From NCBI GenBank assembly GCA_021769625.1, contig JAETSN010000001.1, positions 1-64,000 of the forward strand: a stretch of DNA of 64,000 nt, given 5' to 3'. A program made the translations under genes and the position numbers. Under the pieces are notes generated by a model. The model had not been told where the DNA came from. It worked only from the letters and a program-made list of their open reading frames with translations, and searched no databases. Numbering within the stretch: the first letter of the stretch is position 1; each line of letters starts with the position of its first letter. The DNA is from [Clostridium] symbiosum (GTDB taxonomy: Bacteria; Bacillota; Clostridia; Lachnospirales; Lachnospiraceae). Shown here piece by piece: positions 35,567 through 60,161 of this stretch.

Positions 35567-36850
35567 CTATAATATAGATACGATCTGTATATCTTTTTCC
35601 TCATCCAGATCAACAAAGTGATTCTGGCATTTAATGGTAGGGCGGGTAATGTTGCTCTTATTGATAAAGACGATCTCTCCTTTTTCCCCGCTGCTGAGCA
35701 GTACCCGGTTGCCGATAAAGGTATTCATGACATTCTCCAGAAAGATCATGATGAAGCGGACGTCGTATTTCTGAAGCCCTTCCTCCTGCATCACCTCAAT
35801 GGCCTGGATCGGCGACATGGCGCCCCGGTAAGCGCGCTGGGAGGTCATGGCATCATACACATCGGCGATAGCGACCATCTTCGCATAAGGGTCGATCCGG
35901 AAACCGGAAAGACCGAAGGGATAGCCGCTGCCGTCACACCGCTCATGATGGGTCAGGATCGCGTTTTTAATATGGCTGTCGATATCCAGATCTTTAACAA
36001 GCAGATATCCTTCCCGCGTATGCGCTTTGATGGCGGTCTTATCCTCCTCGGTGTATGCCTCTGTTTTTTTGAGGAGTTCCTCGGGAACCCTTAATTTCCC
36101 AACGTCATGCAGAAGACCGCACAGTGTGGCGAGCTTTGTTTCCTCCTCGGAAAGTTTCAGCCAGCCTGCAAAAACATTACAGAACAGCCCGACGTTAATG
36201 CAGTGGGTATAGGTGGTATCATCACTTTCGCGCATGGAGTGGAGCATATCAAAAATACCATAGGCGCTGTGGTGAGCCTGGGAAACCAGATTTAAAGCGT
36301 CATCCAAAAGAACATCCACTTCCAGAGGCGCGTTTTTTAAAACCACTTCATTGATCTTTGATTTGAAATCATCCACTTCTTCATCAAAGGCCTGTTTAAA
36401 ATGCTGAAAATCCTCACTGGATCTCATTTTTTCCTGATGGGAAGCAGTGGGAAAAGAAAAACCGCCTGTTTCTGGGGAAATATCGGATGCCGGTACTACG
36501 GTGATCGGCTCGAACCTCGGGGCAGGCCTTTCCTTTTTAGATGTTTCCGCAGGCTCCGTATTCGGATTTTCAACAGATGCCGATTCCCCTTCTTCGGAGA
36601 TTTCTTCTGATGCCGGTTCGGGTTCCGAAATGTTGTCGAAAGGAAGCGGTTCCAATACCAACGGCTCTTCGGCACTTACGATTGATTCATCCTCTATGCG
36701 GATCTGATAGATCGCATAAAATTGCAGTTTGGAAATGGATTTGTCATTTAGGACAAGTCCTTTTGGGAGGATGAGCTGGTCATTATAATTATAAACATCT
36801 TCGGCTGTGATCATTCCGGGAATCAGCTCATCGATTTTAAGCTTTTTCAT
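35567..36850 (-). CDS. HD-GYP domain protein
   Basis: LLHDVGKLRVPEELLKK, LTHHERCDGSGYPFGLSG, KMVAIADVYDAMTSQRAYR. Confidence 0.92.
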   Translation of the reverse strand: MKKLKIDELIPGMITAEDVYNYNDQLILPKGLVLNDKSISKLQFYAIYQIRIEDESIVSAEEPLVLEPLPFDNISEPEPASEEISEEGESASVENPNTEPAETSKKERPAPRFEPITVVPASDISPETGGFSFPTASHQEKMRSSEDFQHFKQAFDEEVDDFKSKINEVVLKNAPLEVDVLLDDALNLVSQAHHSAYGIFDMLHSMRESDDTTYTHCINVGLFCNVFAGWLKLSEEETKLATLCGLLHDVGKLRVPEELLKKTEAYTEEDKTAIKAHTREGYLLVKDLDIDSHIKNAILTHHERCDGSGYPFGLSGFRIDPYAKMVAIADVYDAMTSQRAYRGAMSPIQAIEVMQEEGLQKYDVRFIMIFLENVMNTFIGNRVLLSSGEKGEIVFINKSNITRPTIKCQNHFVDLDEEKDIQIVSIL

Positions 36851-55026: not shown

Positions 55027-55512
55027 ATGGAAGAAAAAAGACACATTCTGACTGCGGAAGGTTTAAAAAGATACGAGGATGAGTTATATTATCTGAAAAA
55101 TGAGAGATATAAAGAGATCACCCAGGCGATCAAGGAAGCAAGAGCGCAGGGAGACTTGTCCGAGAATGCCGAATATCAGGCGGCCAAAGAGGCCCAGAGA
55201 CAGGCTGATGCCCGTATCGAGGAACTGGAGAATATGCTGAGCAATGTGGAAGTTGTGGATGAGAGCGAGGATAGTTCCGTTGTCCGCATCGGCAGCACGA
55301 TTCGCATCAGGGATCTGGAATTGGACGAGGAGATGGAGTATCAGATCGTCGGCTCCAGTGAGGCGGACACCGATAAAAATATGATCTCCAACGAGTCCCC
55401 GCTGGGGTTGGCGCTGATCGGCTCGGCGGAAGGAGAGACTGTCAGCGTGCAGGCTCCCATCGGCGAGATCCGCTATCAGGTTTTGGAGATCGGGAAAAAG
55501 GGAAGGGAATAA
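55027..55512 (+). CDS. greA: transcription elongation factor GreA
   Basis: LTAEGLKRYEDELYYLKNERYKEITQAIKEARAQGDLSENAEYQAAKEAQ. Confidence 0.96.
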   Translation: MEEKRHILTAEGLKRYEDELYYLKNERYKEITQAIKEARAQGDLSENAEYQAAKEAQRQADARIEELENMLSNVEVVDESEDSSVVRIGSTIRIRDLELDEEMEYQIVGSSEADTDKNMISNESPLGLALIGSAEGETVSVQAPIGEIRYQVLEIGKKGRE

Positions 55513-55514
55513 AA

Positions 55515-57650
55515 GTGGCAGAGACACAGAATCAGAATAAAGAGAAACAGCAGGATCTAGGCCAGCTGCTGAAGATAAGAAGAGAGAAATTGTCCGCCCT
55601 GCAGGAGGCGGGAAAAGATCCTTTTCAGATCACCAGATACGATGTGACCCATCACAGCGAGGAGATCAGGGAACAGTTTGAGGCGCTGGAGAACGCCCAT
55701 GTGTCCATAGCGGGGCGTCTGATGAGCAAGCGTGTCATGGGAAAGGCCTCGTTCTGCAATGTGCAGGATCTGGAGGGGACGATGCAGTGCTATATCGCCC
55801 GGGACAGCATCGGGGAGGAATCCTACGCGGATTTCAAAAAGTACGACATCGGCGATCTTGTGGGTATCGAAGGGTTTGTCTTTAAGACAAAGACCGGCGA
55901 GATTTCCGTCCACGCGGAAAAGATGACATTGCTGTCAAAATCTCTGCAGATCCTGCCAGAGAAATGGCACGGGCTTACGAACACGGACATCAGATACCGT
56001 CAGAGATATACGGACCTGATCATGAACGAGGATGTGAGAAAGACATTTGTGGCGCGTTCGAAGATCATCAGCTCGATCCGCCGCTATCTGGATGAGAGGG
56101 GATTTCTGGAGGTGGAGACGCCTATGCTGGTGGGAAACGCCGGCGGCGCCGCGGCGAGGCCTTTTGAGACCCACTACAACGCGCTGAATGAAGATGTCAA
56201 GCTGCGTATTTCGCTGGAGTTATATTTGAAGAGGCTGATCGTAGGCGGCATGGAGCGCGTGTACGAGATCGGGCGTGTGTTCCGCAATGAGGGCCTGGAT
56301 ACGCGGCATAATCCGGAGTTTACGCTGATGGAGCTCTATCAGGCGTACACAGATTACAACGGCATGATGGATCTGACGGAGGATATGTTCCGGCATGTGG
56401 CGCAGGAAGTCTGCGGGACGACGACGATTCCCTACGGCGAGGAGATGATCGATCTCGGGAAGCCTTTCGAGCGGATCACGATGGTGGAAGCCGTAAAGAA
56501 ATATACAGGCATTGATTTTGATGAGGTGGCGGATACAAAAGCCGCGAAGAAGCTGGCGGACGAGAAGGGCGTACACTATGAGGACCGCCATACAAAGGGC
56601 GACATCCTGAACCTGTTCTTCGAGGAGTTTGTGGAAGAACATCTGATCCAGCCGACCTTTGTGATGGATCACCCGGTGGAGGTATCCCCGCTGACCAAGA
56701 GAAAACCGGACAAGCCGGACTATGTGGAGCGGTTTGAACTGTTCATTATGGCGCGTGAGATGTGCAACGCCTACTCCGAGCTGAACGATCCGATCGATCA
56801 GAGGGAGCGCTTTAAGGCGCAGGAAGCGGCACTTGCGGCAGGGGACGAGGAAGCCAACACGACGGACGAAGATTTCCTGAATGCGCTGGAGATCGGTATG
56901 CCGCCCACAGGAGGCATCGGTTACGGGATCGACAGACTGGTGATGCTGCTCACAAATCAGCCTGCCATCAGGGATGTATTGCTCTTCCCGACGATGAAAA
57001 CGCTGGATAAAAAATCTTCCGATTCTCCGAAGGGCGGGAAGAAGGAGGCCGGCGCTGCGGGAAAGAAGAGTAGTATCTCCAGAGAGCAGGCGCTGGAGCT
57101 GCTGAAGAAATACAATAAGGAACCGTTCCATATCCAGCATGCGCTGACCGTGGAAGGCGTGATGCGCTGGTACGCGAAGGAACTGGGCTATGGCGCGGAA
57201 GAAGAGTTCTGGGGCATCACCGGGCTGCTTCACGATATTGATTTTGAACTCTATCCGGAGGAACACTGTAAAAAAGCGCCTGAGCTTCTGCGCGAAGCGG
57301 GAGTGGGAGAGGATATGATCTATGCGGTCTGCGCCCACGGCTACGGGATCTGCAGCGAGGAGGAGCCGAAACTGGAGATGGAGAAAGTGCTGTTTGCATC
57401 CGATGAGCTGACGGGGCTGATCTGGTCCTGCGCGCTGATGCGTCCCTCCAGGAGCACGATGGATATGGAAGTAAAGAGCCTGAAAAAGAAATTTAAGGAC
57501 AAGAAGTTCGCAGCGGGATGCTCCAGGGAGATCATTGCCAAAGGGGCGGAGATGCTCGGCTGGGAGCTGGACGATCTTTTTGATAAGACGATTCAGGCGA
57601 TGAGAAGCTGCGAGGAGAGTGTGGCGAAGGCGATGGAGGAGAACGCTTAG
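55515..57650 (+). CDS. lysS: lysyl-tRNA synthetase with C-terminal HD domain
   Basis: Class II LysRS (MVGNAGGAAARPFETHYNAL, YEIGRVFRNEGLDTRHNPEFTLMELYQAY, PPTGGIGYGIDRLVM), then KSSDSPKGGKKEAGAAGKKSS linker and HD domain (HIQHALTVEG...GLLHDIDFE...CAHGYG...ASDELTG). GTG start. Confidence 0.95.
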   Translation: MAETQNQNKEKQQDLGQLLKIRREKLSALQEAGKDPFQITRYDVTHHSEEIREQFEALENAHVSIAGRLMSKRVMGKASFCNVQDLEGTMQCYIARDSIGEESYADFKKYDIGDLVGIEGFVFKTKTGEISVHAEKMTLLSKSLQILPEKWHGLTNTDIRYRQRYTDLIMNEDVRKTFVARSKIISSIRRYLDERGFLEVETPMLVGNAGGAAARPFETHYNALNEDVKLRISLELYLKRLIVGGMERVYEIGRVFRNEGLDTRHNPEFTLMELYQAYTDYNGMMDLTEDMFRHVAQEVCGTTTIPYGEEMIDLGKPFERITMVEAVKKYTGIDFDEVADTKAAKKLADEKGVHYEDRHTKGDILNLFFEEFVEEHLIQPTFVMDHPVEVSPLTKRKPDKPDYVERFELFIMAREMCNAYSELNDPIDQRERFKAQEAALAAGDEEANTTDEDFLNALEIGMPPTGGIGYGIDRLVMLLTNQPAIRDVLLFPTMKTLDKKSSDSPKGGKKEAGAAGKKSSISREQALELLKKYNKEPFHIQHALTVEGVMRWYAKELGYGAEEEFWGITGLLHDIDFELYPEEHCKKAPELLREAGVGEDMIYAVCAHGYGICSEEEPKLEMEKVLFASDELTGLIWSCALMRPSRSTMDMEVKSLKKKFKDKKFAAGCSREIIAKGAEMLGWELDDLFDKTIQAMRSCEESVAKAMEENA

Positions 57651-57871: not shown

Positions 57872-58603
57872 ATGGGAAACGAATCAGGCGAATGGATCAT
57901 GCACGGCGTGGACTGGGATGATCCGGAGTGCATACATATAGTTGACGAAGCAATGGAATATATCAATGAGACGGGTTTTCTCCCGCTGTTCAGGAATGAG
58001 ATCCTGGGATTTTCGCTGGAAGAGCACACGGTGCCCGGGTATTGGTGGTGTGACGATGTGGAGAGAGATCCGTGGATGTGGAGAGCGGTCATTGCAGGGC
58101 GCAGGGATATCATTTACGGCAAATTTTTCAACAGGAAGGCCGGATTTATCTCAAGGAAGTGGCTGCCGGTGTTTGCCAATTATCGCAGGGACGGCTACGA
58201 TTTTGATGCGCTTTACGAGGACGGCAGGGCGCCCCACAAACATAAGAAGATCATGGATCATTTTATCGAAGAAAAGATGGATTCCGAGATCTATTCAAAC
58301 GAACTGAAACAGCTTGCCGGTTTTGGAAAAGACGGCGAAAAGGGATTTGACGGTGCGGTTACAAATCTGATGATGCAGATGTATCTGTGTAACTGTGATT
58401 TCAGAAAACGCAGGAATAAGAAGGAAAAAGAATACGGCTGGGATGTTGCCGTCTATTCTTCCGTCGAGCATCTTCATGGGTATGATCATGTGACTTCCTG
58501 CTATAAAGAGGATCCGAAGGATTCCTGGCGGAAGATCGCAGATTACATGCATGAAGTGTATCCGACCGCCACAGATAAACAGATCGGGAAAGTATTGGGA
58601 TAG
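57872..58603 (+). CDS. hypothetical protein (possibly AlkZ-related)
   Basis: HGVDWDDPECIHIVDEAMEYINETGFLPLFRNEILGFSLEEHTVPGYWWCDDVERDPWMWRAVIAGRRDIIYGKFFNRKAGFIS; family name from memory. Confidence 0.7.
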   Translation: MGNESGEWIMHGVDWDDPECIHIVDEAMEYINETGFLPLFRNEILGFSLEEHTVPGYWWCDDVERDPWMWRAVIAGRRDIIYGKFFNRKAGFISRKWLPVFANYRRDGYDFDALYEDGRAPHKHKKIMDHFIEEKMDSEIYSNELKQLAGFGKDGEKGFDGAVTNLMMQMYLCNCDFRKRRNKKEKEYGWDVAVYSSVEHLHGYDHVTSCYKEDPKDSWRKIADYMHEVYPTATDKQIGKVLG

Positions 58604-58620
58604 GAGAGAGGAGGCCGATC

Positions 58621-59028
58621 ATGACATACGACTATAATAAAGAACGGCAGGAGGCGATCGACGCCGGCAACAGGGCACTCCAGAGCCTGTACGCCGCGCA
58701 GAGTGACTTAAACAGTGCGAAAAACTGGGGAATCGTGGATCTGTTCGGCGGCGGAATGATAACAGGCCTGATCAAGCATTCCAAGATGAACAATGCGCAG
58801 AGCCACATGGAGCAGGCGAAGTATGACCTGCAGAGATTCAGCAAGGAACTCGGGGACGTAGCAGCTTATATCAGCCTGGACTTTAATACGGGAGATTTTC
58901 TGAGCTTTGCGGACTATTTTTTTGACGGCCTGGTGGCGGACTGGCTGGTGCAGGACCGGATCAACAGCGCCAGAGCGCAGGTGGACGAGGCGATCCGCAG
59001 AGTGCAGAATGTTTTGGGCAGGCTGTGA
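58621..59028 (+). CDS. hypothetical helical protein
   Basis: NRALQSLYAAQSDLNSAKNWGIVDLFGGGMITGLIKHSKMNNAQSHMEQAKYDLQRFSKEL; tight spacing with neighbours. Confidence 0.72.
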   Translation: MTYDYNKERQEAIDAGNRALQSLYAAQSDLNSAKNWGIVDLFGGGMITGLIKHSKMNNAQSHMEQAKYDLQRFSKELGDVAAYISLDFNTGDFLSFADYFFDGLVADWLVQDRINSARAQVDEAIRRVQNVLGRL

Positions 59029-59070
59029 GCAAAATCTGCATTATGAAAACAGGCGGGAGGACTTGAAAAT

Positions 59071-59517
59071 ATGGAACATAAATTCTGGCACAGCGGACAG
59101 GCGGACATACAGGCGATAACCGACGAGTACAGAGGAATACATACCCCTGCTGACTTATACGATGCCCTTTCCGATATCTGGTGCGCAGATACCTGCGCGC
59201 CGAGGATGAGGCAGAACTGGACGCCGGAGAATAAAACTCTGGGGCAATGTTCGATCACGGCGTTTCTGGCGCAGGATATCTTCGGCGGGAAAGTATACGG
59301 CGTGCCGCGCTCCGGCGGAACTTACCACTGTTATAATGTGATCGGAAACTGCAAATTTGACCTGACGAGCGAGCAGTTCGGAGATGAAGTTCTGGTATAT
59401 GAAGGAAATCCGGAACAGTTCCGGGAGGTTCATTTATCAAAGGAAGAGAAGAAGCTGCGGTACGAGTATCTGAAGGAACAGTTGAGAGAATGGACGGCAA
59501 AACAAAGAATATATTGA
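59071..59517 (+). CDS. YunG-like hypothetical protein
   Basis: TLGQCSITAFLAQDIFGGKVYGV...TYHCYNVIGNCKFDLTSEQFG resembles the YunG family. Confidence 0.65.
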   Translation: MEHKFWHSGQADIQAITDEYRGIHTPADLYDALSDIWCADTCAPRMRQNWTPENKTLGQCSITAFLAQDIFGGKVYGVPRSGGTYHCYNVIGNCKFDLTSEQFGDEVLVYEGNPEQFREVHLSKEEKKLRYEYLKEQLREWTAKQRIY

Positions 59518-60161
59518 TAATATGCCGAATGCTGGCGGTTGCAGGGTATCTGAAGACGCCAAAGAAAGAATTGCAGGCAGACGGCACATATCTGTGCGAG
59601 GTTTCTATTCCGAATAAAGAGATAGCCGCAGTCTACAAGAGTGAGATCCTGTCTCATTTGCTGCAGATCGGGGCGATCACACGGATGACGGCAGATAAAA
59701 TAGCGGAGAGCATCTATGCGAATGATCTTAAGAAGCTGCAGCAGGCCATTACGGAATATATGGATAGATCGGTCAGCTTTTATGACGCCGGTGCAGAAGG
59801 CTTTTATCATGGGCTGGTTCTCGGCCTGGTTGCCCTGATAGATGATCAATATAAAATCAGGTCAAACAGAGAATCCGGTGACGGAAGATATGATATCAGT
59901 CTGATTCCCAGAGACAGGATACATCCCGGGATTATCATGGAATTGAAATGTGAGAATGGGTTGACAGCAGAAAAATTGGATACGTTGTTGGCGGAAGCGT
60001 TGGATCAGATCAATGAGAAACGGTATGATGCGGAAATGCGCGGTGACGGCGTGGAGAATATCCTGAAACTTGGGATCGCTTTTTCCGGCAAGAAAGTAAA
60101 GATAAGAACGGAAAAACACAGTGAGACATCTGAAATACAGAAAAATATATATACGAAATAA
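59490..60161 (+). pseudogene. truncated AAA-ATPase-like/PD-(D/E)XK (DUF1703-type) protein, C-terminal portion only
   Basis: GFYHGLVLGLVALIDDQYKIRSNRESGDGRYDISLIPRDRIHPGIIMELKC aligns with the C-terminus of 277-2025; AAA domain absent; 5' end overlaps the YunG-like gene. Confidence 0.75.

Follow-up and report, generated by a model that had tools for sequence, protein, structure and literature searches.

The window analysed here, 64,000 nucleotides of [Clostridium] symbiosum contig JAETSN010000001.1, contains a gene in which lysyl-tRNA synthetase (LysRS) is fused with a C-terminal HD domain. The reading frame showed no break from the GTG start to the stop codon, and its product has 711 residues. 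The features of the locus are as follows:

55027-55512, + strand: presumably greA-like gene directly 5' of the fusion, a neighbour kept in fused loci
55515-57650, + strand: lysS-HD fusion gene, 711 codons, GTG start, open frame
55701-55934, + strand: LysRS anticodon-binding OB domain (PF01336, residues 63-140)
55983-56996, + strand: LysRS class II catalytic domain (PF00152, residues 157-494)
56985-56997, + strand: attachment-site core TTCCCGACGATGA, encoding FPTM(K), the final conserved residues of LysRS
56998-57071, + strand: variable linker, Lys/Ser/Gly-rich (LDKKSSDSPKGGKKEAGAAGKKSS)
57072-57647, + strand: HD domain (residues 520-711), by profile, alignment and structure model

Residues 18-496 matched two curated models of class II LysRS over their full length and above cut-off, NF001756 with 720 bits (cut-off 468) and TIGR00499 with 672 bits (cut-off 428). 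The first-pass annotation was right in describing one open frame with a complete class II LysRS, and both the Lys/Ser/Gly-rich linker and the HD motifs lie where it had placed them. Compared with bacterial class II LysS, the core is the same over its full length, and the linker and HD domain are a C-terminal addition. LysX (PRK02983), a fusion of lysylphosphatidylglycerol synthetase and LysRS, is likewise a domain fusion of LysRS, but its partner module is N-terminal and unrelated to HD. In a different genome (G142:C106, L193), a very long open frame continues in frame past the lysS stop and would give about 2000 residues in total if this stop were read through.

A search of the genome's contigs found no second LysRS among the matches. 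Because the fusion is the sole LysRS found, it is presumably an active synthetase, whose LysRS part would presumably charge tRNA-Lys. An assembly artefact or frameshift could be excluded, since the same fused frame recurs in three further species of the genus (91-92% identity) and in 21 of the 80 best GTDB loci.

Family and fold of the HD domain

Curated models matched the HD part only weakly: PF01966 gave 20.2 bits, under the Pfam gathering score of 22, and TIGR00277 gave 25.0 bits (cut-off 27.6). Despite this, the assignment is secured by 55 aligned homologues with invariant ligands and by a confident HD-like model of the domain (pLDDT 95.1); the AlphaFold model of the full fusion was of low confidence (pLDDT 47.8). 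The predicted metal ligands, which had been noted as intact from the sequence, are H542, H573, D574, H584, H608 and D630 (H27, H58, D59, H69, H93 and D115 in the numbering of the HD alignment). H542, H573-D574 and D630 correspond to the H...HD...D ligands of the HD superfamily, and H584 and H608, likewise invariant, complete the extended H...HD...H...H...D motif, which is diagnostic of a dinuclear site (PMC8177086). By this motif, the HD part is predicted to be a dinuclear HD enzyme.

When the HD sequence was searched against the PDB, nothing matched. Fold matches of the model in the PDB included PgpH, the GlyRS beta subunit and YqeK, with TM scores of about 0.45-0.55, none of which had E < 0.001, so that the likeness is at the superfamily level only. 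PgpH-type HD phosphodiesterases were the best match by E-value (TM about 0.5); however, this value was above 0.04, and nothing points to cyclic-di-AMP as a substrate.

The HD domain is a member of a widespread stand-alone Bacillota family, which occurs as a free protein of about 200 residues in many relatives. A stand-alone paralogue, about 54% identical, was found in the same genome as the fusion (G000:C33:3100-3642; L051, L078). The window also encodes another HD-domain protein (35846-36214, minus strand; 439-aa open frame), which matched PF01966 with 69 bits.

Distribution and history of the HD tail

Four of the nine species examined in the genus carry the fusion; G297, G298 and G299 of the same genus had no HD match. 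The 21 fused GTDB loci all had uninterrupted frames, kept their upstream genes and were nearly all titled Lachnospiraceae or genera of this family. In a family sample of 397 genomes, the HD family was found in 210 and the fusion in five genomes from four genera. HD was also found in 177 of 295 genomes of an order sample, and 319 of 399 genomes of a phylum sample had an HD profile match. Among the matches listed outside the family in these two samples, none had the size of a LysRS fusion except a 434-aa HD frame in G115, which contains no LysRS. Viral contigs contained one HD fragment only. The fusion is thus rare, as had been supposed: in the samples searched it was confined to Lachnospiraceae, and we found no LysRS-HD fusion in the literature searched (most subscription journals were outside its reach).

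A second, diverged LysRS-HD fusion was observed in G611 (G611:C55; L185, L237), in which the linker is longer and Ala/Lys-rich. Its core and HD domain are each 71-77% identical to the other fusions, and in the HD tree its HD domain pairs with the stand-alone copy L138 (100/93). Because of this pairing and the divergence of both parts, the G611 fusion may represent a second, independent origin. No attachment core or integrase of the lysS-element type was found in the next 19 kb.

G611 aside, most pairs of fused HD domains had pS values of 0.5-0.8 and pN values of 0.03-0.10. Synonymous sites were about as saturated as those of the LysRS core, and in distant pairs pN was lower than that of the core. 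With pS near saturation and pN far lower, the LysRS-HD fusion is shown, as judged from these substitution patterns, to be old and its HD part to be under purifying selection; such high conservation could reflect a role linked to LysRS. Phylogenetic analyses placed the HD tails in one clade (99/87; G611 aside). The LysRS cores bearing HD tails did not form one clade (AU p 1.7e-68), and the starred branches of the core tree require that the HD state changed 11 times or more. Synonymous sites, which are saturated in HD, gave no recent transfer of the HD tail in any genome pair, and sequence 3' of the HD gene was conserved only between close species. Within the HD tails, tree incongruence was weak (AU p 0.035): the protein tree grouped L040/L041 with L084/L088/L094. 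This grouping would point to transfer inside the HD clade; since synonymous distances contradict it, the incongruence was not used as evidence. The scattered HD tails could be the result of one old fusion followed by many losses of the tail via mobile elements, or else of movement of the tail itself.

The lysS attachment core and exchange of C-terminal domains

The LysRS/HD junction coincides with TTCCCGACGATGA at the codons of FPTM(K). This is the 13-bp TTCCCNACNATGA core of lysS-integrating elements, and because the fusion joins HD beyond it, an essential gene now has this attachment site in its interior. The first-pass annotation recognized the fusion and overlooked the attachment site where the two domains meet, a more revealing feature. 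This 13-bp repeat has been reported, with single-base variants, for the vanD islands in enterococcal lysS (PMC8301612). Streptococcal ICEs are also known to integrate in lysS and are reported to modify the end of LysRS very little (PMC4701971). The lysS core is the same as that of vanD islands Tn6711-Tn6713 and streptococcal ICEs, and in relatives the distal end of the element likewise carries a tyrosine integrase. In contrast to these known systems, the attachment site here is internal to a longer gene, and the element end in relatives encodes a whole C-terminal domain replacing that of the host.

An integrated element with a tyrosine integrase at the lysS site was found in the relatives G306, G307 and G584 and was absent from the window; downstream of the fusion, 57872-60158 contained no integrase of the lysS-element type. 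The genes in this interval are AlkZ-related, unknown, YunG and a PD-(D/E)XK nuclease.

The clearest cases of exchange involved a tRNA-binding domain (tRNA_bind, PF01588), which occupies the same point of LysRS in 8 of 30 sampled relatives and in G310. LysRS cores of G560 and G344, which represent two genera (L226, L230), were synonymously saturated (pS 0.87), whereas their tRNA-binding tails had a pS of 0.02 and a pN of 0 over 159 codons. The final 90 bases of the core were 76% identical and the tail bases past the attachment core were identical, locating the break in identity at this core. From inside the tail, an identity of 99.98% continued through the element over at least 14.7 kb. Judged from sequence, the genes of this element include ParA/ParB-like ones and one that is probably arsenate-reductase-like. 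In G584, a single contig (G584:C1:307000-350000, L223-L225) contains a 36-kb element between attachment cores at 309641 and 345750. An integrase of the same family lies at its right end, the second core follows just after this integrase, and behind that core is an orphan tRNA-binding tail, which differs very little from the tail now on LysRS. On this arrangement, the G584 element is one that brought its own tRNA-binding LysRS tail, with the displaced tail left as the orphan behind the integrase. The identity of the G560 and G344 tails and the structure of the G584 element indicate that an entire domain travels with such elements and is swapped; by these comparisons, exchange of LysRS C-terminal domains by mobile elements is shown in the relatives.

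Other elements split or trim the fusion. In G306, LysRS ends with FPTMKTLGKENQ and a stop at the contig end, and another contig contains a tyrosine integrase, whose DNA-binding domain is of the Tn916 type, followed by FPTMKSLEKK...HD. A similar split fusion was found in G307. Since the two halves lie on separate contigs, an element between them was deduced from its two ends. G298, G299 and G302, all of the window's genus, have short LysRS tails common to more distant species, which are of the TLGGKDQ or SLGKENQ types or SIPNRD; the SIPNRD tail is identical in G553. G309 (G309:C19; L103, L238) has an intact LysRS and two HD copies (738 bp, 98.8% identical), each beginning at an attachment core and separated by the remnant of an integrase. 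Both copies are pseudogenes with LLYDID (a His-to-Tyr change in the HD motif) and an internal TAG; as the inactivating changes are common to both, one copy is a duplicate of the other.

No domain exchange of LysRS was found in the literature searched either (again with most subscription journals outside reach), and both the domain architecture and the exchange route are apparently new.

Function of the HD domain and significance of the fusion

We consider it somewhat more probable than not that the gene encodes a functional LysRS with a linker-tethered HD phospho(di)esterase that has its own substrate, and that fusion and loss occur via attachment-site recombination. The broader proposal, that elements shuttle whole C-terminal domains of LysRS (tRNA-binding, HD or none) and that the HD fusion described here is a product, stands in our judgement at an even chance. 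LysRS would bear, on a flexible linker, a metal-dependent HD enzyme found as a free protein in many relatives, a putative dinuclear phospho(di)esterase independent of the synthetase reaction and tethered to a constitutive, essential protein. In relatives, the comparisons show that lysS-integrating elements recombine at the FPTMK codons, supplying a new lysS 3' end and leaving the old tail behind the integrase of the element. The new end encodes either a tRNA-binding domain or a short tail; in a single decayed case it encodes HD. With a domain-coding lysS 3' end beside the attachment site of each element, one recombination would give the host LysRS a new domain. We infer that lysS acquired its HD tail, and lost it again, by recombination at this core; the C-terminus of LysRS would therefore be an exchangeable module in Lachnospiraceae.

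Stand-alone HD genes were located away from lysS and had no conserved neighbours, suggesting that the HD enzyme does not need LysRS. A dapA-dapB-aspartokinase context in L100 was considered as a guide to function and rejected as not general. Because the neighbours of stand-alone copies gave no substrate hint, the enzymatic role of the HD part is one that we infer.

Among the alternatives, the stronger functional one, though unlikely, is that HD acts on RNA or tRNA ends (e.g., as a phosphodiesterase for cyclic phosphates or for 3' ends that are damaged), with LysRS keeping it close to tRNA-Lys, and takes the place of the tRNA-binding domain of sister lineages. The PF01588 domain at the same point of sister LysRSs would fit this role, but the attachment site accounts for the shared position, which need not reflect function. 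The archaeal Trm56-HD fusion PRK12703 was among the closest profile matches (E 3e-5, far under its cut-off) and HD domains of GlyRS beta were among the fold matches; however, these matches are weak and stand-alone HD genes lack conserved tRNA-related neighbours.

Control of Ap4A, suggested by the first-pass annotation on a YqeK-like reading of the HD part, appears quite improbable. LysRS, a classic Ap4A source (PMC10148737), would make a dinucleotide, either Ap4A or another, that its HD tail would degrade, so that the fusion sets the alarmone level. YqeK (COG1713) is an HD Ap4A hydrolase sharing the H...HD...H...H...D signature (PMC8177086) and similar in size to the HD part, and YqeK structures were among its fold matches (TM 0.43-0.51). 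However, the spacing from HD to the next His is much shorter in the HD part, which TIGR00488 did not match at a threshold as loose as E ≤ 10. The genome encodes its own canonical YqeK elsewhere (C109; 161 bits, cut-off 70), to which hhalign aligned the HD part with a probability of 2%. Moreover, the arginine that marks HD phosphatases three residues before the first metal histidine (PMC8177086) is replaced by a conserved histidine in this HD family, and most genomes with the HD enzyme have it free and distant from lysS. Membership in YqeK was thus rejected, which weakens the proposed loop and leaves Ap4A a possible but unsupported substrate.

That the tail is a chance-joined, tolerated passenger of no benefit to the cell is also very doubtful: the G309 pseudogenes, the species of the genus that lack an HD match and the ease with which elements cut HD off would agree with it, but pN is far below pS, all ligands are invariant and no fused GTDB locus has a broken frame.

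Integration at the 3' ends of housekeeping genes is thought to leave the product almost unchanged (PMC4701971). With an attachment site between two domains, elements would take away or substitute a whole domain of an essential enzyme and move it between genera, and by such element-driven exchange new protein architectures could arise directly. To find the role of this common HD enzyme, the species that have the tail and those that lack it would serve as natural knock-outs.
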